Source: Chthonomonadales bacterium
Lineage (GTDB): Bacteria; Armatimonadota; Chthonomonadetes; Chthonomonadales; CAJBBX01
Reading direction: 5' to 3'
Assembly: GCA_020849275.1 (NCBI GenBank)
Contig: JADLGO010000009.1
Location: 1 to 64,000, forward strand
Length of the DNA stretch: 64,000 bases
The position numbers and the translations under genes were made by a program. Within the stretch, counting starts at the first letter, position 1, and each line of letters begins with the position of its first letter. A model generated the notes under the pieces. It was not told where the DNA came from, did not search any database, and saw only the letters and a program-made list of their open reading frames with translations. Positions 8,484 to 18,317 of the stretch are shown piece after piece.

Positions 8484-8489
8484 TATAAT
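8484..8489 (+). promoter_or_regulatory. -10 box upstream of hisD
   Basis: Perfect TATAAT. Expected start of transcription about 8496, followed by AGGAG at 8505-8509 and GTG at 8518. The ATG at 8488 lies inside this box, so it cannot be the translation start. No clear -35. Confidence 0.7.
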
Positions 8490-8517
8490 GGATCCATTCC
8501 GCTCAGGAGCCCGCCCC

Positions 8518-9828
8518 GTGCGCACCGTGTCCGTGGAATCGGAGGGATATGCCGCCGCGGCGGCCGCCGTGCGGCGCACGGGCCTCGAGACCGATCCAGA
8601 GGTCGAGCGGGTGGTCGCCGGTATCGTGGCGGAGGTGCGCGCGCGGGGTGACGAGGCGCTCCTCGATCTCGGGCGCCGTTTCGACTGCCCCGGCCTCGCC
8701 GCGCTCGAGGTGAGCGCGGACGAGTGGGAGCAAGGATGCGCGGCGGTTCCCGGCGAGGTGAAGGCCGCGCTCGACCGCGCCGCCGCCAGCATCCGCGCGT
8801 TCCACGAGCAGCAGCGCCGCCCGAGTTGGATGGACGCTCGCGAGGGTGCCGTCACCGGCCAGGTCGTGCGCGCTCTCGACCGCGTTGGCCTCTACGTGCC
8901 CGGCGGCACCGCGGTCTATCCGAGCAGCGTGCTCATGGTGGGCGTGCCCGCGCGTGTCGCGGGGGTGAGCGACATCGTGATGACGACTCCGGCGACTCGC
9001 ACGGGCGAGGTGCACCCGTCGGTGCTCTACGCGGCGCGGGTGGCCGGAGTCTCGCGTGTGTTTCGGATCGGCGGGGCGCAGGCCGTGGCGGCGCTGGCCT
9101 ACGGCACGCAGACGGTACCGGCGGTGGACAAGGTCGTGGGGCCGGGGAACGTCTACGTGAACGCGGCGAAGAAGCTGGTGTGGGGCGTCGTCGACGTGGA
9201 CATGCTGGCGGGCCCGAGCGAGGTCTGCGTGGTCGCCGACGACGGCGCGAACCCGGCCTTCGCCGCCGCCGACCTGCTGACGCAGGCCGAGCACGACGCC
9301 GATTGCGCCGCCTATCTGCTCACCCCCTCGGCGCGCCTTGCGGCCGCGGTCGCGCGCGGGATCGAACAGCGAATGGCCCATCTGCCGCGCCGCGGCCTGG
9401 TCGCCCGCGCGCTGGAGGCGCATGGCGCCATCGTGGTCACGCGTACCCTCGACGAGGCGCTCGACCTGGCCAACGTGTGCGCGCCGGAGCACCTGGCCCT
9501 GATGGTTCGCGACCCCTTCGCCGCGCTCGCCCGCGTGCGCAACGCCGGCGCGGTGCTGCTGGGCGACTACTCGCCGCAGACGCTCGGCGACTACCTCGCC
9601 GGGCCGAGCCACACGCTGCCCACCAGTGGCACCGCGCGGTTCGCCTCGCCGTTGCATGTCGACACATTCCTGAAGAAGTCGAGCTTCATCTATTACGACC
9701 GTGCCGCCCTGGCCGCCGTGGGCGGCCTCCTCGTGCGCTTTGCGGAGGAGGAGGGTTTCGGAGCCCACGCGGAGGCCGTACGGGCGCGCCTCGCGCCGCC
9801 GGCGGGCGGCGGAGAGGGGATGGCATGA
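8518..9828 (+). CDS. hisD: Histidinol dehydrogenase
   Basis: Zinc enzyme that oxidises L-histidinol twice with NAD+ to L-histidine, the last steps of histidine synthesis. 436 aa from the GTG start, normal for HisD. Diagnostic segments: [60 protein letters not shown] (zinc/catalytic region), and near the end [18 protein letters not shown]. The start is chosen as GTG 8518 because AGGAG is 8 nt upstream; the in-frame ATG at 8488 overlaps the TATAAT box. It is first in a run that continues with hisB by a 4-bp ATGA overlap, which implies translational coupling. Confidence 0.97.
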
Positions 9829-10439
9829 CGCCGCAAGGCACGCCCGCGCCACGGGAGGCGCTCGTACGTCGGGCGACCAGCGAGACGGAGATCGAGTTGC
9901 GGCTGTCGCTGGACGGGGCGGGCGAAGCCCGGACGCACACCGGGGTCGGCTTCCTCGACCACATGCTCGCGCAGGTTGCGCGCCACGGCATGCTCGACCT
10001 GAGCGTACAGGCCCGCGGTGATCTTCACGTGGACGACCACCACACCGTGGAGGACGTGGGCATCGCGCTCGGCGCGGCGCTGCGCGAGGCGCTCGGAGAT
10101 CGCGCCGGGGTCGCGCGCTATGGCGATGCCGTGGTGCCGATGGACGAGGCGCTCGTGCTCTGCGCGCTTGACCTGAGCGGACGCGGGCTGAGCGTGTGCG
10201 CGCTCGAGATTCCGGCCGAGCGCATCGGTGGCATGGCGGCAGAGATGGTGCCGGAGTTCTTCCGGGCCGTGGCACACAACGCCGGCATGACGCTGCACCT
10301 CCGGCAGCTTGGCGGGACCAACAGCCACCACATCGTGGAGGCGGCCTTCAAGGCGTTCGCGCGCAGCCTGCGCCAGGCCGTCTCTTGCGAGGAGGGGAGC
10401 GGCGCCATCCCCTCCACGAAGGGCTCGCTGCAAGGATAG
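9825..10439 (+). CDS. hisB: Imidazoleglycerol-phosphate dehydratase
   Basis: Dehydrates imidazole glycerol phosphate to imidazole acetol phosphate (histidine pathway). 204 aa, the monofunctional form without the HAD phosphatase domain of enteric HisB. Family motifs: TEIELRLSLDG, GVGFLDHMLAQVARHG, DLHVDDHHTVEDVGIALG (metal-binding His cluster), the second half FFRAVAHNAGMTLHL and GGTNSHHIVEAAFKAFAR. The start ATG 9825 overlaps the hisD stop (ATGA), with GGAGAGG just upstream. Histidinol-phosphate phosphatase must come from another gene; the inositol monophosphatase-like protein at 17529 is one candidate by family, not by evidence. Confidence 0.97.
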   Translation: MTPQGTPAPREALVRRATSETEIELRLSLDGAGEARTHTGVGFLDHMLAQVARHGMLDLSVQARGDLHVDDHHTVEDVGIALGAALREALGDRAGVARYGDAVVPMDEALVLCALDLSGRGLSVCALEIPAERIGGMAAEMVPEFFRAVAHNAGMTLHLRQLGGTNSHHIVEAAFKAFARSLRQAVSCEEGSGAIPSTKGSLQG

Positions 10440-10457: not shown

Positions 10458-11462
10458 ATGGACCTGCTCGTGCTGGGCGGCACGCTCTTCCTCGGCCGCC
10501 ACATCGTGGAGGATGCCCTGCGCCGCGATTGGCGCGTCACGCTCTTCAACCGGGGCCAGCACAATCCCGATCTCTTCCCAGGTGTCGAGCGCATCACGGG
10601 CGACCGCGACGGCGGCCTGGACGGGCTGACCGGCCGCGCATGGGACGCGGTCGTGGACACGAGCGGCTACGTCCCGCGCGTGGTTGCTGCATCGGCGCGT
10701 CTGCTCGCGCGGTCCGTCGGCCACTACGCGTTCGTGTCCACCGTCTCGGTCTACGCCGACTTCCGGCGGGAGGGCATGGGCGAGGCCGCGCCGGTTGGCG
10801 TGCTCGACGACGACTCGGTCGAGACGGTTGACGACGCGACCTATGGGCCGCTGAAGGCGCTCTGTGAGGGGGAGGTCGAGCGCGCCCTGCCGGGACGCGC
10901 GCTGATCGTGCGTCCCGGCCTGATCGTAGGCCCGCACGACCCGAGCGACCGCTTCACCTACTGGCCGCTTCGCGTCGCCGGCGGTGGCGAGGTGCTGGCT
11001 CCAGGGGCTCCGGACGGCCCGGTGCAGGTGATCGACGCGCGCGACCTGGCGGCGTGGGTGCTCGACATGGCCGCCGGCGGCCGCGTCGGCGTGTTCAACG
11101 CCGTCGGCCCCGACGTGCGACTGACCCTTGGAGAGGTGCTTGACACCTGCCGCGAGGTCTCCGGCAGCGACGCGCGTTTCACCTGGGTGCCGGAGGACTT
11201 CGTGCTGGAGCAGGGGTTGCGGCCCTGGGCCGATCTGCCGCTCTGGCTGCCGCGCGGTTCCGGTGAATACGTCGGGTTGGACACCGTGAGCAATGCGGCA
11301 GCCGTGGCGGCGGGGTTGCGGTTCCGGCCCCTGGCCGAGACCGCGCGCGACACGCTCGCCTGGGCATGCGGGCGCCCGCGGACAGCACTGCGCGTGGGCA
11401 TCACGCGCGAGCGCGAGCGGGAGCTTCTGAACGCATGGCGCGCCGCGAGCTACCCGATCTGA
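10458..11462 (+). CDS. NAD-dependent epimerase/dehydratase (extended SDR)
   Basis: 334 aa Rossmann-fold protein. N-terminal nucleotide-binding motif MDLLVLGGTLFLGRHIV (GGTxFLG, atypical SDR glycine pattern), Thr/Ser in FVSTVSVYAD, and the catalytic pair in TYGPLKALCE (Y-x3-K). Such proteins act as nucleotide-sugar epimerases, reductases or isoflavone-reductase-like enzymes, so the substrate is open. It follows hisB by 18 nt and overlaps the next gene by 28 bp, hence is probably co-transcribed with the his genes although no histidine step needs it. GGGGGG lies 4-9 nt before the ATG. Confidence 0.8.
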   Translation: MDLLVLGGTLFLGRHIVEDALRRDWRVTLFNRGQHNPDLFPGVERITGDRDGGLDGLTGRAWDAVVDTSGYVPRVVAASARLLARSVGHYAFVSTVSVYADFRREGMGEAAPVGVLDDDSVETVDDATYGPLKALCEGEVERALPGRALIVRPGLIVGPHDPSDRFTYWPLRVAGGGEVLAPGAPDGPVQVIDARDLAAWVLDMAAGGRVGVFNAVGPDVRLTLGEVLDTCREVSGSDARFTWVPEDFVLEQGLRPWADLPLWLPRGSGEYVGLDTVSNAAAVAAGLRFRPLAETARDTLAWACGRPRTALRVGITRERERELLNAWRAASYPI

Positions 11463-11941
11463 GCGCCCGGCCGGCTCTCGGCGTCTACCGGCCGCCGGCG
11501 GCGCTGCGGTGGGTGTTCGCCCTCGCCGGAGCCGGCTGCGCGGCGGCGAGCCTGCTGGCGGTTGCGCTGGCGGTGGCCCAGGGGAAGTGGGAGCCGCTCG
11601 TGGGCGCGCTGGTGCTCGCGGCGCCGGTGGCGCCGGCGGCCGCCGGGCTGCGGCGCCGGGTGACGGTTGACGGGGGTGGCCTGAGCTCCACGGGCGCCCT
11701 CGGCACGCTCCGGGTGCCGTGGGACGCCATTCGCCGCGTCGACGTGTCGCGCCGCTCTTTCGTCGTGGAGTCGCAGGCCGGCCCGGTGTCGGCCGGATGG
11801 TTGGCCGCGTCGCGTCGCGAGGAGTTGCTGGAGGCTGTAGTGCGGGGCGCCGACCTGGTGCCGGCGTGGACGCGCCTGCCGTGGGGAGTCCGAGCGCGGT
11901 ACGTGCGGCGGGAGGCCGCGCGGTCGAGGGCGGAGCGATGA
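11435..11941 (+). CDS. Small membrane protein with PH-like (bacterial PH) domain, unknown function
   Basis: 168 aa. Two hydrophobic helices (about residues 25-50, WVFALAGAGCAAASLLAVALAV, and 53-73), then a beta-rich region RVTVDGGGLSSTGALGTLRVPWDAIRRVDVSRRSFVVES. The V-PWDxI-x-V pattern is typical of bacterial PH-like membrane proteins. I chose ATG 11435. Longer frames from 11366 would lie wholly inside the epimerase gene and would not begin with the same pattern. Its stop overlaps the hisH start (ATGA), so it is translationally coupled into the histidine operon. No histidine step calls for a membrane protein. Function not assignable. Confidence 0.65.
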   Translation: MARRELPDLSARPALGVYRPPAALRWVFALAGAGCAAASLLAVALAVAQGKWEPLVGALVLAAPVAPAAAGLRRRVTVDGGGLSSTGALGTLRVPWDAIRRVDVSRRSFVVESQAGPVSAGWLAASRREELLEAVVRGADLVPAWTRLPWGVRARYVRREAARSRAER

Positions 11942-12576
11942 TCGCGATCGTGGACTATGGTGCGGGGAATCTGGGCAGCGTCTACAAGGCGTTCCGCCAT
12001 ATCGGCGCCGCCGCCGCGGTGACCGCGGATGCCGGCGAGGTGGACCGCGCCTCGGCGCTGGTGCTGCCCGGCGTCGGCGCCTTCAGCCACTGCATGGCGG
12101 GCCTGGAGGCGGCGGCGCTGACCAGGCCGGTTCGGGCCTTCATTCGCTCGGGGCGCCCCTTCCTTGGCATCTGCGTGGGTATGCAGATGCTCTTCGCGGG
12201 CAGCGAGGAGCAGGCCGCGTGCCCGGGTCTCGGCGTGCTGGGCGGCCGCGTGGCGCGGTTGCAATTTGAGGGCGGCGCCGGAACCCGTGCCGACGGCCGC
12301 GCGCTGAAGGTGCCGCACATCGGCTGGAACGCGCTGGAGTTTCGTCCGGAGGCGCGCCTCTTCCGCGGCCTCTCGCAAGGCGACAGGGTCTACTTCGTGC
12401 ACTCGTACTATCCGCTGCCCGAGGAGGCCGATGACGTGAGCGCGACGACCGACTACGGCCATCGGTTCTGCTGCGCGGTGGAGCACGGGAACGTGCATGC
12501 CACCCAGTTCCACCCGGAGAAGAGCGGCCAGATCGGGCTCGCCATCCTGCGAAACTTCGTGTCCTCATGCTCGTAG
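11938..12576 (+). CDS. hisH: Imidazole glycerol phosphate synthase, glutaminase subunit
   Basis: Hydrolyses glutamine and channels ammonia to HisF to form IGP and AICAR. 212 aa class-I glutamine amidotransferase. Motifs: IAIVDYGAGNLGSVYKAF at the N-terminus, LPGVGAFS, nucleophile Cys79 in GICVGMQ, VPHIGWN, VYFVHSYY, and His192/Glu194 in ATQFHPEKSG. The start overlaps the previous stop by ATGA. hisA follows 10 nt later. The partner hisF is not in the window, nor are hisG, hisC, hisI or hisE. Confidence 0.97.
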   Translation: MIAIVDYGAGNLGSVYKAFRHIGAAAAVTADAGEVDRASALVLPGVGAFSHCMAGLEAAALTRPVRAFIRSGRPFLGICVGMQMLFAGSEEQAACPGLGVLGGRVARLQFEGGAGTRADGRALKVPHIGWNALEFRPEARLFRGLSQGDRVYFVHSYYPLPEEADDVSATTDYGHRFCCAVEHGNVHATQFHPEKSGQIGLAILRNFVSSCS

Positions 12577-12586
12577 AGTCAACCGA

Positions 12587-13327
12587 ATGCTGCTAATACC
12601 CGCGATCGATCTGAAGGGCGGCAGGTGCGTCCGCCTGTCGCAGGGCGAGTTCACGCGCGTCGAGACCTACAGCGAGGATCCGCTCCGCTACGCCCGACGC
12701 TGGTTGGAGGAGGGCGCCGAGCGTCTTCACGTAGTGGACCTCGACGGTGCGCGCCTGGGCGTGCCGCAGACGCGGAACCTGGAGGTCGTGCGCCAGATCA
12801 TCCGGCGCACCGGCCTGCCCGTCCAGATGGGCGGCGGCGTTCGCAGCCTGGAGATCGCCGAGCGCATGCTGCGGATCGGCGCCGATCGTGTGATACTGGG
12901 CACGGCGGTCGCGCGCGAGGAGGCGACGGCTCGCGATCTCTTCGCCCGCCTCGGCGACCGTGCCATCGTGGGCATCGACGCTCGCGACGGGCGTGTGGCG
13001 GTGTCGGGCTGGCAGGAGCAACTGGAGGCGCCGGCTGTCGAGTTCGCCCTTCGCATGGTGGCGCTCGGAGCGCGCCGCATCGCCTTCACCGACATCGCGC
13101 GTGACGGCATGCTGGCCGGCGCCAACCTTCCGCCGCTCCGCGCGCTTCTGGACGCGGTCAGCGTCCCGGTGATCGCGTCGGGGGGCGTCACAACGCTCGA
13201 CGATGTGCGCGCGCTCAGCGCGATGGAGCCGCCGGCGCCCGAGGCCGCGATCGTCGGCAAGGCGCTGTACGCCGGGGCCCTGAGGCTCGCCGACGCCATC
13301 GCGGTTGCCCGGGGAGGCACGCCGTAG
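12587..13327 (+). CDS. hisA: Phosphoribosyl-formimino-AICAR ribotide isomerase (ProFAR isomerase)
   Basis: Amadori isomerase of the histidine pathway converting ProFAR to PRFAR. 246 aa (beta/alpha)8 barrel. LLIPAIDLKGGRCVRLSQG at the N-terminus carries the first catalytic Asp. PVQMGGGVRS and VILGTAVA form phosphate-binding loops, FTDIARDGMLAG holds the second catalytic Asp, and VIASGGV is the second phosphate loop. The AIDLKGGRCVRL/VVDLDGAR pattern fits HisA, not HisF. TrpF activity (PriA-type dual enzymes) cannot be excluded. Start ATG 12587, 10 nt after hisH. Confidence 0.95.
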   Translation: MLLIPAIDLKGGRCVRLSQGEFTRVETYSEDPLRYARRWLEEGAERLHVVDLDGARLGVPQTRNLEVVRQIIRRTGLPVQMGGGVRSLEIAERMLRIGADRVILGTAVAREEATARDLFARLGDRAIVGIDARDGRVAVSGWQEQLEAPAVEFALRMVALGARRIAFTDIARDGMLAGANLPPLRALLDAVSVPVIASGGVTTLDDVRALSAMEPPAPEAAIVGKALYAGALRLADAIAVARGGTP

Positions 13328-13351: not shown

Positions 13352-13657
13352 GTGGCCGAGCATCTTCTTGCCGTGCTCGTCATCGCGATCTTCATGTCGA
13401 TCCCGCTGGCGGCCATTCTTTGCGCTCACCGCCGCAGGATGGCCGAGATCGAGTTGCGCCACAGGCAACCGGGCGACGAGGCGCTCCGTCAGCAGGTGAA
13501 CGCGCTCCAGCAGCAAGTCGCCGCACTGCGCGACACCACGACGAGCTACGACCTGAGCTTCGACACCGCGCTGCAGCGGGTGGAGCGGCGGCTGTCCGCC
13601 GTGGAGCGCAACGGCGCGCACGCGCCCGATGAGCAGCCGTCTCGCAGAGCACTGTAG
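13352..13657 (+). CDS. Small membrane / coiled-coil protein, paralogue 1 of 3
   Basis: 101 aa. One membrane helix (LLAVLVIAIFMSIPLAAILCA, residues 5-25), a short basic/charged segment (HRRRMAEIELRH), then a heptad-rich coiled coil (ALRQQVNALQQQVAALRDTTTSYD) and the motif YDLSFDTALQRVERRLSAVE. The start is GTG 13352 with GGAGG 6 nt upstream. It is 24 nt after hisA and followed by two similar genes. The arrangement (helix, then 'RRRMAE', then coiled coil) recalls PspB-like proteins in shape, but I see no homology strong enough to name it. Likely an inner-membrane-anchored cytoplasmic coiled-coil oligomer; role unknown. Confidence 0.7.
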   Translation: MAEHLLAVLVIAIFMSIPLAAILCAHRRRMAEIELRHRQPGDEALRQQVNALQQQVAALRDTTTSYDLSFDTALQRVERRLSAVERNGAHAPDEQPSRRAL

Positions 13658-13716
13658 CGGCGGGCGGCCGTCGCGCAACGGGGTCCGGAGACGGTGCACG
13701 ACGCGAGGGAGCAGGG

Positions 13717-14064
13717 ATGGGATTCTGGACGTTCGTGACCATCATGGTGCTGGTCGGCCTCGCGAAGTCGGTGATGAAGCACCGGCAGCAGATGGCCGAG
13801 GTGGGCCATATGCGCCGCGAGGACGGCGAGCTCGGCCAACTTCGCGTTCAGCTGAAGCTAGGCGCTCAGCAGAAGGGCGACGCGCGCCTGCTGGCCGAGA
13901 TCGAGCAGCTCCGCAAGGAGTTCGCCTCCCTTCGCGACACGGCCACCCAGTACGACCTGAGCTTCGATACGGCACTGCAGGGCATCGCGAGCCGGGTCGC
14001 GCGGCTGGAGCAGCGCGTGGACCGTGCCGAGGTCGGCGCCGCGCCACGGATCGAGGTGGGCTGA
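13717..14064 (+). CDS. Small membrane / coiled-coil protein, paralogue 2 of 3
   Basis: 115 aa. Short hydrophobic N-terminus (FWTFVTIMVLVGLAKSV), charged segment KHRQQMAEVGHMRRED, then GAQQKGDARLLAEIEQLRK (coiled coil) and the shared ATQYDLSFDTALQ, ending in a second coil RVARLEQRVDRAE. Residues about 51-85 are encoded by a 104-bp stretch identical base for base to part of the next gene. SD GGGAGCAGGG precedes ATG 13717. The membrane helix is weaker than in its neighbours, so it may be a peripheral or soluble partner in the same complex. Confidence 0.7.
   Translation: MGFWTFVTIMVLVGLAKSVMKHRQQMAEVGHMRREDGELGQLRVQLKLGAQQKGDARLLAEIEQLRKEFASLRDTATQYDLSFDTALQGIASRVARLEQRVDRAEVGAAPRIEVG
13867..13970 (+). 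repeat. 104-bp perfect direct repeat, copy 1
   Basis: Identical to 14187-14290 with no mismatches, including synonymous positions, and in the same codon frame of each gene. The flanks differ at once on both sides (first mismatches at 13866/14186 and 13971/14291). This implies a recent duplication or gene conversion. Confidence 0.95.
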
Positions 14065-14069
14065 GACCG

Positions 14070-14390
14070 ATGCCCGAACTGGCCCTCTTCATCCCGATAC
14101 TGGCCGTGCTGCTCATCTTCGGGATCCCGATCATCGCTATCCTGACCAGTCATATGCGCACCATGGCGCAGATGAAGTTGGACGCCCAGCAGAAGGGCGA
14201 CGCGCGCCTGCTGGCCGAGATCGAGCAGCTCCGCAAGGAGTTCGCCTCCCTTCGCGACACGGCCACCCAGTACGACCTGAGCTTCGATACCGCCCTGCAG
14301 CGCGTCGAGGGCCGTCTGGGCTCCATCGAGTCGCGGGTCGGCGCCCTGGAGCGGGGCGAGAACCTGTCCACCGGCAACCGCGCCTCGTGA
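14070..14390 (+). CDS. Small membrane / coiled-coil protein, paralogue 3 of 3
   Basis: 106 aa. N-terminal membrane helix LFIPILAVLLIFGIPIIAILTSH (residues 6-28), 'MRTMAQMKLDAQQKGDARLLAEIEQLRKE', the invariant LRDTATQYDLSFDTALQRVE motif, and a terminal coil RLGSIESRVGALE. It starts 5 nt after paralogue 2 stops. It shares 104 identical bases with paralogue 2 and the LRDTxTxYDLSFDTALQ motif with all three. Probably the downstream end of a three-gene unit following hisA. Function unknown; membrane-anchored scaffold is inference. Confidence 0.7.
   Translation: MPELALFIPILAVLLIFGIPIIAILTSHMRTMAQMKLDAQQKGDARLLAEIEQLRKEFASLRDTATQYDLSFDTALQRVEGRLGSIESRVGALERGENLSTGNRAS
14187..14290 (+). repeat. 104-bp perfect direct repeat, copy 2
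   Basis: Second copy of 13867-13970, offset exactly 320 bp, in frame in the third paralogue. It encodes the coiled coil and the YDLSFDT motif. Confidence 0.95.
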
Positions 14391-14631: not shown

Positions 14632-15534
14632 GTGCCGCTAGCAAGCACTCAGGCCATGGTGCGTGCCGCGCGGGCCGGCCGCTACGCGGTCGGCGCGTTC
14701 GAGCCGTACGGGCCGGACCAGATCCTGGCGACGGTGGCCGCAGCCGAGGACGAGCGCGCGCCCGTCATTCTACAGTTCTGGTCCGAGGTGATTGAGACGT
14801 GGGGCGTCGGCACCCTGATGGCCGTAGCGCGCGAGGCTGCCCGCCGCGCGCGGGTGCCGGTGGCCGTGCACCTCGACCACTGTACGGACGAGGCCCTGAT
14901 CGAGGAGTGTCTGGAGGCCGGCCTCTCGAGCGTGATGTTCGACGGCTCGCGGCTGCCGCTGGAGGAGAACGTGGCTCGGACGCGGGCCGTCGTGCGCCGC
15001 GCCCACGCGGCGGGGGCCGACGTGGAGGCCGAGCTCGGGATCATCGGAGCGCTTGCGGATTACGCTTCGCCCGAGGAGGCGATGGAGGCGGCCCGCGAGC
15101 TGCTGACCACGCCCGAGCAAGCCGCCGCGTTCGTGCGCGAGACGGGCGTGGACATCCTGGCGCCGGCCGTCGGCTCCGTCCACGGCTGCCCATTCCCGAT
15201 GGCCCGCCTCGACATCGCGCGCATCGCGGCCATCGCAGAGGCGACCGGTGTGCCGCTGGCCCTGCACGGTGGGTCGGGCATTCCGCCCGCGCAGGTGGAG
15301 GCAGCCATCGCGGCCGGGATCGCGAAGGTGAACGTGGACGCCGAGGTGCGCGGCGCCTACATCGCGGCGCTGCGCGAGTCCGTCGAGGCGATCGGGCGTG
15401 GGACGAACGACTGGGAGGACCTGGCGCGCTGGCCGCGAGCGGCGCGCGAGGCGACTCGCAGGGCGGTCCGCGCCCGCATCGGTTCCACCGGCTCGGCCGG
15501 GCGGGCCGGGCAGGGGGCGGCCGCGCGGGTATAA
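14632..15534 (+). CDS. Class II fructose/tagatose-bisphosphate aldolase family protein
   Basis: 300 aa zinc-dependent aldolase of the FbaA/GatY/KbaY fold. Motifs: [16 protein letters not shown] near the N-terminus, [32 protein letters not shown] with the zinc His and catalytic Asp, [30 protein letters not shown] (phosphate/zinc His) and [13 protein letters not shown]. The start is GTG 14632 with GGAAGGGGG just upstream. An in-frame extension to 14425 lacks family sequence. In FBP aldolases the residue after the His pair is usually the same, so reversible aldol cleavage of a ketose bisphosphate to DHAP is likely. The exact sugar is not readable. The promoter of sucD overlaps its stop. Confidence 0.85.
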
Positions 15535-15535
15535 T
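15530..15535 (+). promoter_or_regulatory. -10 box for sucD, overlapping the aldolase stop codon
   Basis: TATAAT with the aldolase TAA (15532-15534) inside it. Expected start near 15542, leader about 30 nt to the sucD ATG 15573. Preceded by GGG; no clear -35. Confidence 0.6.
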
Positions 15536-15572
15536 CGCTAGGGAACCAACGAAGGCTGTACGGGAAGACGCG

Positions 15573-16451
15573 ATGAGCATCATGGTGGACGCCGGCACGC
15601 GCGTCATCGTTCAGGGCATTACGGGAAGGGAAGGGTCGTTCCACACGGCCCAGATGCTGGAGTACGGCACCGCGATCGTCGGGGGCGTGGTGCCCGGCAA
15701 GGGCGGCACTCGGGCGGTGGGCGGCGTGCCGGTGTTCAACACGCTTCAGGCTGCCGTCGAGGCGACGGGCGCCACGGCATCCATTCTCTTCGTTCCCGCG
15801 CGCTTCGCTGCCGACGCCATCCTCGAGGCGGTCTCCTGCCGGCTCGAGACCGTGGTGGCCATTACCGAGGGGATCCCGACACAGGACATGATCCCGGTGG
15901 TGCGCGCCTCGCGCGAGGCGGGGACACGCCTGATCGGCCCCAACTGCCCCGGCGTCATCTCGCCGGGGCAGTGCAAGCTCGGCATCATGCCGGGGGAGAC
16001 CTTCTCGCCGGGCCGTGTCGGGCTCGTCTCGCGATCTGGCACCCTGACCTACGAGATCGTGGACGAGCTGACCCGCGCGGGCCTCGGCCAGTCCACCTGC
16101 GTGGGCATCGGCGGCGATCCGATCCTGGGCACCACCTTTGCCGACGTGCTGCCTCTTTTCGAGGCCGACCCGTGGACCGACGCGATCGTGCTCGTGGGCG
16201 AGATCGGCGGATCGGACGAGGAGAGCGCCGCGGCGATGTGCGGCGGCATGCGGACGCCCGTGGTCGGCTTCATCGGCGGCCGGACGGCGCCGCCTGGTAA
16301 GCGCATGGGCCATGCCGGCGCCATCATCAGCGGCCGCACCGGCACGCCCCAGGCGAAGGTCGAGGCGCTCGAGGCCGCGGGCGTTCCGGTGGCGGAGGCG
16401 ACGCACGACATCCCGGAGCTGGTGCGGCGCGCGCTGGCCAACGCAACCTGA
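15573..16451 (+). CDS. sucD: Succinyl-CoA ligase (ADP/GDP-forming) subunit alpha
   Basis: TCA-cycle enzyme subunit that binds CoA and carries the phospho-histidine during succinyl-CoA to succinate conversion with NTP formation. 292 aa, matching the family. CoA-binding Rossmann motif [104 protein letters not shown], and the active-site His in [10 protein letters not shown]. The beta subunit gene sucC, normally adjacent, is absent here; the next gene is malate dehydrogenase. Confidence 0.95.
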
Positions 16452-16485
16452 CGGCGCGCCCCGTGGTGCGCCGGGGAGGACCGCG

Positions 16486-17496
16486 ATGTATCTCACCGAT
16501 AAGAAGGTCGCCGTGATGGGAGCGGCGGGCGCCATCGGCTCGAACCTGGTGCAGGACCTGCTCTCCACCGGCACGGCCAGCGTGATCGCGATGTACGACC
16601 CGTTCGCTTCGGGCCTGGAGGGGGCGGCCGAGGAGATCTACCACTGTGCCTACCCCGGTGCGCGCGTCGCCTGGACCACGGACCCGGGCGAGGCGCTGGA
16701 GGGCGCCTCCTACGTCATCTCGTCCGGCGGCGCGCCGCGCAAGGAGGGGATGACGCGTGAGGACCTCCTGCGCGGAAACTGCGAGATCGCGCGCGACCTC
16801 GGGCGCAGCATCCGTCAGCACGCTCCGGACGCGGAGCTTGTCGTCGTCATCTTCAACCCGGCGGACATCACCGGCCTGACGACCCTCGTCTACTCCGGCC
16901 TCAAGCCGGGATACGTGTCGACCCTCGCCGCCCTCGACAGCACCCGTCTCCAGACCCGGCTGGCGCAGCACTTCGGCGTCGCCCAGGACGTCGTGGCCGG
17001 CTGCGCCACCTACGGCGGCCATGGCGAGAAGATGGCGGTTTTCAAGGCCGGTATCCGCGTGGCCGGCGTGGCGCTGACCGACATCCTGGCGGGCGCCACG
17101 GCGAACGGCCGGTCGCTCACCGCCGAGACCTGGGCCGCGATTCAGGACAACGTGCGGTCCGGCGGCGCGCGCATCATCAAGCTGCGCGGGCGCTCGTCGT
17201 ACCAATCGCCGTCGCACCAGAGCGTCCAGATGCTGCGGGCACGCATCCAGGGCAGCGACTACCCCTGGCCGTGCGGGGCCTACTTTGCGGATGGACCTTA
17301 CCGTGGGGTGATGATGGCCGCGGATGCGCGCTTCACCGCCGAGGGCATCGTGGGTAGCGTGCCGCGGGGCAGTGAGGACGACATGGCGGCGCTGCGCGAA
17401 AGCTACGAGCACCTGTGCGCGCTGCGCGACGAGGTGGTGGCGGCCGGCATCCTGCCGCCACCGGGAGAGTGGCGCACGCTGAACCCGAACCTCTGA
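16486..17496 (+). CDS. mdh: Malate/lactate dehydrogenase family protein (probable malate dehydrogenase)
   Basis: NAD-dependent oxidation of malate to oxaloacetate. 336 aa. N-terminal [20 protein letters not shown] (glycine-rich NAD loop), [12 protein letters not shown] with the Asp that selects [23 protein letters not shown] with the mobile-loop Arg residues, IFNPAD (usual family NPVD), and catalytic His in [14 protein letters not shown]. The GGAPRKEGM loop fits malate better than lactate. The start ATG 16486 has GGGGAGGA about 6 nt upstream. It lies 34 nt after sucD, so the two TCA-cycle genes form a unit. The C-terminal half diverges from textbook MDH ([15 protein letters not shown]), leaving some doubt on substrate. 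Confidence 0.85.
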
Positions 17497-17528
17497 TCGG
17501 GATGCTCGGGGGGCGAAGGAGGGCGCGC

Positions 17529-18317
17529 TTGCTGGCGGACATCGAGCACGTGAAGCGGCTGGTGGTGGAGGCCGGCGATCGCGCCCGCGAGGGCTGGGGC
17601 GCGGTCGAGGCGGAGACGAAGGCGGACCAGACGCTCGTGACGTGCGTCGATCGCGAGACGGAGCGGTTCCTGGCCGACTCGCTGGAGGAGGCTTACCCCG
17701 GCTACGGGTTCGTCGGCGAGGAGTTCGGGCGGCGTGGTCCCACGGACGCGCCGCTGTGGGCGTGCGACCCGATCGACGGGACCACCAACTTCGTTGTCGG
17801 TCTGCCGCACTGGTGCGTGTCGGTCGGCCTGCTGCATCGAGGCCGTGCCGTGCTCGGAGTCATCTATCTTCCGGCGCTCGACGAGCTCTACTGGGGCGCG
17901 CTGGGCGAGGGGGCCTTCGTGAACGGCGAGCGGATGCGCGCACCGGACCGCGATGCCATCGGCTACGAGGATCCCATCTGCCTGACGAGCAACAGCCTGA
18001 AAACGCTGAACGCCGGGGCGCTCGCCGGCAGGCTGCGCTGCGTGGGGAGCATCGCCGCGGAGCTCGCGGCTACGGCGCGGGGCAGCCTGTGCGCCACGGT
18101 GGGGCTGCAAGAGGGGATCGTGGACATGGCCGCGGCGTTCTGCCTGTGCCACGAGGCCGGCTGCGTGGCGCGGCATCTCGCCGGTCCGGATCTCGACCTT
18201 GGGGCGCTCGTGGAGGCGAAGCGCACGACGGACCACTTCGTGGTGGCGCCGCCACGCCTCGCCAGCTATCTGCAGCGCACGCTGCGCCCGCGAGCACAGA
18301 GCAGCGGGGCCGCCTAG
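17529..18317 (+). CDS. Inositol monophosphatase family protein
   Basis: Mg-dependent phosphatase of the IMPase/SuhB/HisN fold. 262 aa from TTG 17529. Metal-site motifs: GFVGEEFG (Glu), WACDPIDGTTNFVVGLPHWCVSVGLL (the DPIDGTT signature), and the third motif altered to GIVDMAAAFCLCHEAGC where WDxAA is usual. Start: TTG 17529 has AAGGAGGG ideally spaced. An ATG at 17502 in the same frame has no SD and is the alternative. Possible substrates are inositol phosphate, histidinol phosphate (HisN type, of interest because no HolPase is visible with the his genes) or sugar phosphates. The stop overlaps the convergent oxidoreductase stop in CTAG. Confidence 0.82.
   Translation: MLADIEHVKRLVVEAGDRAREGWGAVEAETKADQTLVTCVDRETERFLADSLEEAYPGYGFVGEEFGRRGPTDAPLWACDPIDGTTNFVVGLPHWCVSVGLLHRGRAVLGVIYLPALDELYWGALGEGAFVNGERMRAPDRDAIGYEDPICLTSNSLKTLNAGALAGRLRCVGSIAAELAATARGSLCATVGLQEGIVDMAAAFCLCHEAGCVARHLAGPDLDLGALVEAKRTTDHFVVAPPRLASYLQRTLRPRAQSSGAA

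Follow-up and report, generated by a model that had tools for sequence, protein, structure and literature searches.

Tandem paralogues of a predicted membrane-anchored coiled-coil family downstream of hisA in Armatimonadota

What are the three small genes that directly follow hisA in this genome of the order Chthonomonadales (phylum Armatimonadota), and what might their products do at the end of a histidine operon? In the window (the whole 64,000-nucleotide stretch of DNA that was analysed), three same-strand open reading frames at 13352-14390 (+) encode proteins of 101, 115 and 106 amino acids. They were confirmed as the real tandem paralogues that the earlier note on this DNA had described (13352-13657, 13717-14064 and 14070-14390, all +): each has a hydrophobic N-terminus (best 19-residue Kyte-Doolittle mean of 2.9, 1.7 and 3.0, respectively) and each matches a common family profile. 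Paralogue 1 (P1) has a GTG start with GGAGGTG upstream, and consists of an N-terminal membrane helix, an HRRRMAE basic stretch, a motif-bearing coiled coil and the trimerisation motif RLSAVE. Paralogue 2 (P2) combines a weaker membrane helix and a longer linker with a motif-bearing coiled coil and RVARLE, and paralogue 3 (P3), the nearest of the window copies to the family consensus, was modelled by AF2 as one long single helix (pLDDT 90). The shared motif, RDT(T/A)T(S/Q)YDLSFDTALQ, reads RDTTTSYDLSFDTALQ in P1 (13529-13576, +) and RDTATQYDLSFDTALQ in both P2 (13933-13980, +) and P3 (14253-14300, +). Pattern and profile searches of the genome returned no copies besides P1-P3; a search of 6-20 kb of the window against Rfam gave no match, and a promoter/terminator scan found none.

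The earlier note had taken the constancy of this motif as a sign of function, and part of that constancy has another source. P2 and P3 share 104 consecutive identical nucleotides (13867-13970 = 14187-14290, +), nested in a 146-nt tract at 92% identity whose flanks drop abruptly to background, the mark of recent gene conversion or partial duplication, with one tract copied onto the other. Given such a recent event, the identity of the motif between P2 and P3 is not in itself evidence of selection, and that portion of the claim is weakened. Independent support for constraint comes from P1, whose DNA in this stretch is 60% identical, and from the rest of the phylum, where the claim holds. Concerted evolution by gene conversion between tandem copies, proposed as the sole cause of the invariance, accounts for the P2/P3 tract and is valid solely there; the motif is kept in single-copy genomes and in old, position-distinct paralogues, and dN/dS is low, so that for the family as a whole the proposal is refuted, and we give it almost no credence as a general account.

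Of 291 Armatimonadota genomes, 159 matched a family profile built from a 64-member alignment. When 84,980 species were scanned for the core LR[DE]T..YD, the matches were Armatimonadota or MAGs, and the MAGs that could be placed belonged to the same phylum; a scan with a single motif would overlook diverged relatives in other lineages, and the apparent restriction to Armatimonadota applies to the motif-bearing form. For P1-P3, searches of Pfam, NCBIfam, PHROGs and PADLOC yielded either coiled-coil matches below threshold or no match, and the family carries no Pfam or NCBIfam name. Plasmid sequences did not match the family, matches among PDB sequences were limited to generic coiled coils and designed bundles, and in the literature we found no paper on the family and two PSP surveys that do not mention Armatimonadota.

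Across 77 distinct loci, arrays range from one to six copies (1 in 26 loci, 2 in 29, 3 in 19, 5 in 2 and 6 in 1), with some counts distorted by contig ends and frameshifts. At least two copies are present in 51 of these loci, which supports tandem arrangement as the rule. The earlier note had named scattered single copies lacking motif constraint, or a match to a known family, as grounds against its reading; we found copies that are not merely scattered singles, a motif that is constrained, and no named family at its cut-off for the window proteins. Values of dN/dS between same-genus orthologues (mostly 0.03-0.2) indicate purifying selection. In a paralogue tree with few columns and many open forks, each of the three array positions of one genus makes up its own clade with full support, and family f3 likewise has separate clades for the last and the penultimate copy; many array copies are thus old, distinct lineages, overlaid by local duplication or conversion. 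In several genera the orthologues group by array position, which would also fit specialised or heteromeric subunits, as in the hetero-oligomeric complex proposed earlier; against hetero-oligomers as the only form, 26 of the 77 loci hold one copy, and homo-oligomers must therefore work somewhere. Fimbriimonadaceae-type members (f14) are shorter and have largely lost the motif wording, so that the constraint is strongest in Chthonomonadia and neighbours.

On average 0.1 K/R residues precede the membrane helix and 3.1 follow it, a bias that predicts an N-out, C-in topology with the C-terminus inside, and the remainder of the protein beyond this helix is helical by AF2. Column hydrophobicity revealed a heptad pattern over residues 47-93, with a block 1 core of L47-I51-L54-F58-L61-(65)-Y68-F72 and a block 2 core of L76-V79-L83-I86-V90-L93. 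Hydropathy, K/R bias and heptad pattern together support, by prediction, the membrane-anchored coiled coil first read from the sequence. A single 4-residue offset from F72 to L76 constitutes a stutter (defined as in PMC4786415), and YDLSFDTALQ sits exactly on this offset. The two heptad blocks carry mirrored g/e charges, with E at g57 and R at e62 in block 1 and R at g82 and E at e87 in block 2 (73-95% of members).

RhxxhE occupies positions 82-87 in 52 of 62 members (84%) in g-a-x-x-d-e register and is present in all three window copies; in block 2 it was observed in 57 members, whereas shuffles preserving heptad classes averaged 3.0 (maximum 10). According to Kammerer et al. 2005, as cited in PMC5940361, the usual reading of this motif is a parallel trimer. 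The family resembles RhxxhE trimeric coiled coils in having R at g, E at e and hydrophobic a/d positions in block 2, but RhxxhE is a structural motif and denotes no family, and the oligomeric state here is a prediction from sequence; RhxxhE and g/e charges are also found in coils of other oligomeric state. Outward positions of the stutter motif are far more conserved than those elsewhere in the coil (2.60 vs 1.17 bits, p = 9e-6), and D63, T66, Q67, L70, T74, Q77 and R78 show roughly the conservation of the core. This conserved outward face points to a partner surface, and the motif is probably a partner-docking joint.

The closest design among named families is that of PspB, in which a helical domain in the cytoplasm follows an N-terminal membrane helix; PspB is rare outside Proteobacteria and can be duplicated (PMC11237479). 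By prediction (hydropathy, K/R bias and an all-helix model), the family has the same layout of a small bitopic protein, and PspB (PF06667/TIGR02976) also carries an RhxxhE-like ERIQALE near its end; unlike PspB, the family has a longer coil and a conserved stutter motif, lies outside a psp operon and is found without PspC. P1, P2 and P3 did not match PspB (PF06667) even at an E-value of 10, fall below its gathering cut-off, and come from a genome (G000) with no PspB match. Of the library models that align over both membrane helix and coil, PspB scores best; it is the top family model for some members, reaching at most 25.6 bits, which equals the cut-off, and PRK09458 and TIGR02976 are also among the matches; PspB matches were limited to 3 of the 64 members, the 25.6-bit match being the third copy in genus g23. 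Comparison of the family profile with E. coli PspB aligned only 14 residues at 24% probability; the E. coli sequence used scores 112.5 bits against Pfam PspB and carries its ERIQALE in the aligned stretch. On these comparisons the family appears PspB-like in design and distinct from PspB itself.

Of the genomes tested, 52 of the 53 carriers have PspA, compared with 28 of the 50 non-carriers, and PspA is present in 30 of the 31 genomes of the order. It is kept in four relatives where the family was not found (G001, G002, G014 and G021), and the co-occurrence could be confounded by shared ancestry. Family genes were not found beside pspA; in the window genome they adjoin hisA, away from pspA and pspC, and PspA is encoded on another contig (C52:157584-158234). 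PspC was found in none of the 31 genomes of the order and was absent from 88 of 89 genomes searched in the phylum. The only PspC among the phylum genomes tested consists of two adjacent PspC domains (G087:C6:265627-266001). The idea that the family replaces PspC proved uninformative, PspC being missing from nearly all tested genomes, carriers or not.

We tentatively favour membrane-anchored, PspB-like trimers whose stutter joint docks a cytoplasmic partner, with PspA as the leading candidate. Small single-pass membrane proteins would assemble through their cytoplasmic coiled coil, most likely as parallel trimers, and the paralogues could form homo- or hetero-trimers. Two heptad blocks of opposite g/e salt-bridge polarity would be joined by the YDLSFDTALQ stutter, whose conserved outward surface would dock the partner and which could relay conformational change from the membrane. 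Such proteins may act, as PspB does, as a membrane-anchored sensor or recruiter with a putative stress role. A bolder form, in which hetero-trimeric coiled coils encoded in his operons replace PspB/PspC in Armatimonadota and the stutter serves as both signal-relay and PspA-docking joint, we consider quite unlikely. With the favoured reading, an undescribed, widely conserved family of one phylum gains a structural interpretation and a short list of candidate partners, and the family might explain how PspA is attached to the membrane of phyla that have neither PspB nor PspC.

The position of the genes raises the separate question of histidine synthesis. In the window, hisD (8488-9828, +; PF00815, 534 bits), hisB (9825-10439, +), hisH (11938-12576, +) and hisA (12587-13327, +; PF00977, 242 bits) precede P1, with a gap of 24 nt between hisA and P1, and the order hisD-hisB-hisH-hisA-family recurs across loci. 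The suspected link to hisA is real: among 75 loci with upstream sequence, hand-picked from the match list so that fractions describe the sample, the same-strand gene just upstream is hisA in 47, hisB in 7 and hisH in 1 (a his gene in 55). These 55 loci span eight families of the phylum, and the gap to hisA is often 0-30 nt or an overlap, as would be expected of a histidine-pathway accessory whose trimers tether HisA (or a HisH/HisA/HisF group) to the membrane or regulate HisA. Against this role, four genomes at 97-99% completeness (G132, G145, G154 and G155) keep the family with no full HisA/HisF and weak TIM-barrel matches. Elsewhere the family adjoins hisB or rpoB, or stands alone, away from his genes, in family f29; in G015 it lies at 1.18 Mb beside a BatA-VWA gene, far from both of that genome's full PF00977 genes (1.93 and 2.58 Mb). 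These cases disfavour the accessory role, which we judge very unlikely, and from them we conclude that the family is best read as a his-operon passenger outside histidine synthesis. Its place at the operon end would then reflect expression and not service to the pathway, and stable coupling to hisA despite this independence would make a clean case of an operon passenger.

Two further readings concern the protein itself. It could serve another envelope machine as a general membrane scaffold, for instance together with the BatA/VWA protein encoded just downstream, or within a division or secretion complex. In nine Chthonomonadaceae-type loci (L034, L035, L036, L037, L039, L040, L041, L047 and L049) the next gene after the array, often overlapping it, encodes a BatA-VWA protein; this gene also accompanies the family in G015, where hisA lies elsewhere, and position-specific copies hint at ordered subunits. 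However, families f1, f6, f14 and f15 lack BatA downstream of the array, and no partner gene except his is common to the loci. Division proteins of the FtsL/DivIC/FtsB type likewise combine one membrane helix with a coiled coil in about 100 amino acids, but their coil is periplasmic, whereas the charge bias puts that of the family inside; matches to division models were sub-threshold, and comparison with FtsB gave 0.4% probability. We consider the scaffold reading somewhat unlikely. True descent from an ancestor common to proteobacterial PspB, followed by divergence and independence from PspC, is unlikely: it would explain why the third copy of g23 reaches the Pfam cut-off over membrane helix and coil and why E. 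coli PspB has the same RhxxhE motif (RIQALE) in the aligned stretch, but few members match PspB, PspC is nearly absent from the genomes searched, LRDTxTxYDLSFD is absent from PspB, and short coils converge easily.

Several observations on gene order accompany these results. The his genes of Chthonomonas calidirosea are dispersed (PMC4959169), and hisA scores are low (36-56 bits) in family f28. In the window, hisD-hisB and hisH-hisA are separated by two ORFs (10458-11941), one NAD-epimerase-like and one for a small membrane protein, and a similar insertion of ~1 kb is present in L025, L028 and L031. In Fimbriimonadaceae-type genomes (L053, L057, L142, L143, L146 and L147) the array is flanked by his genes on one side and rpoB on the other. 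After P3, class II aldolase-like, SucD-like, malate-dehydrogenase-like and inositol-monophosphatase-like genes, named from sequence reading, follow at 14635-18317 in an order kept only in f1, the family of the window genome. Genus g23 (L051, L161, L162 and L163) has a second, single-copy family locus, divergent to two tandem Gfo/Idh-like oxidoreductase genes and beside a response regulator.
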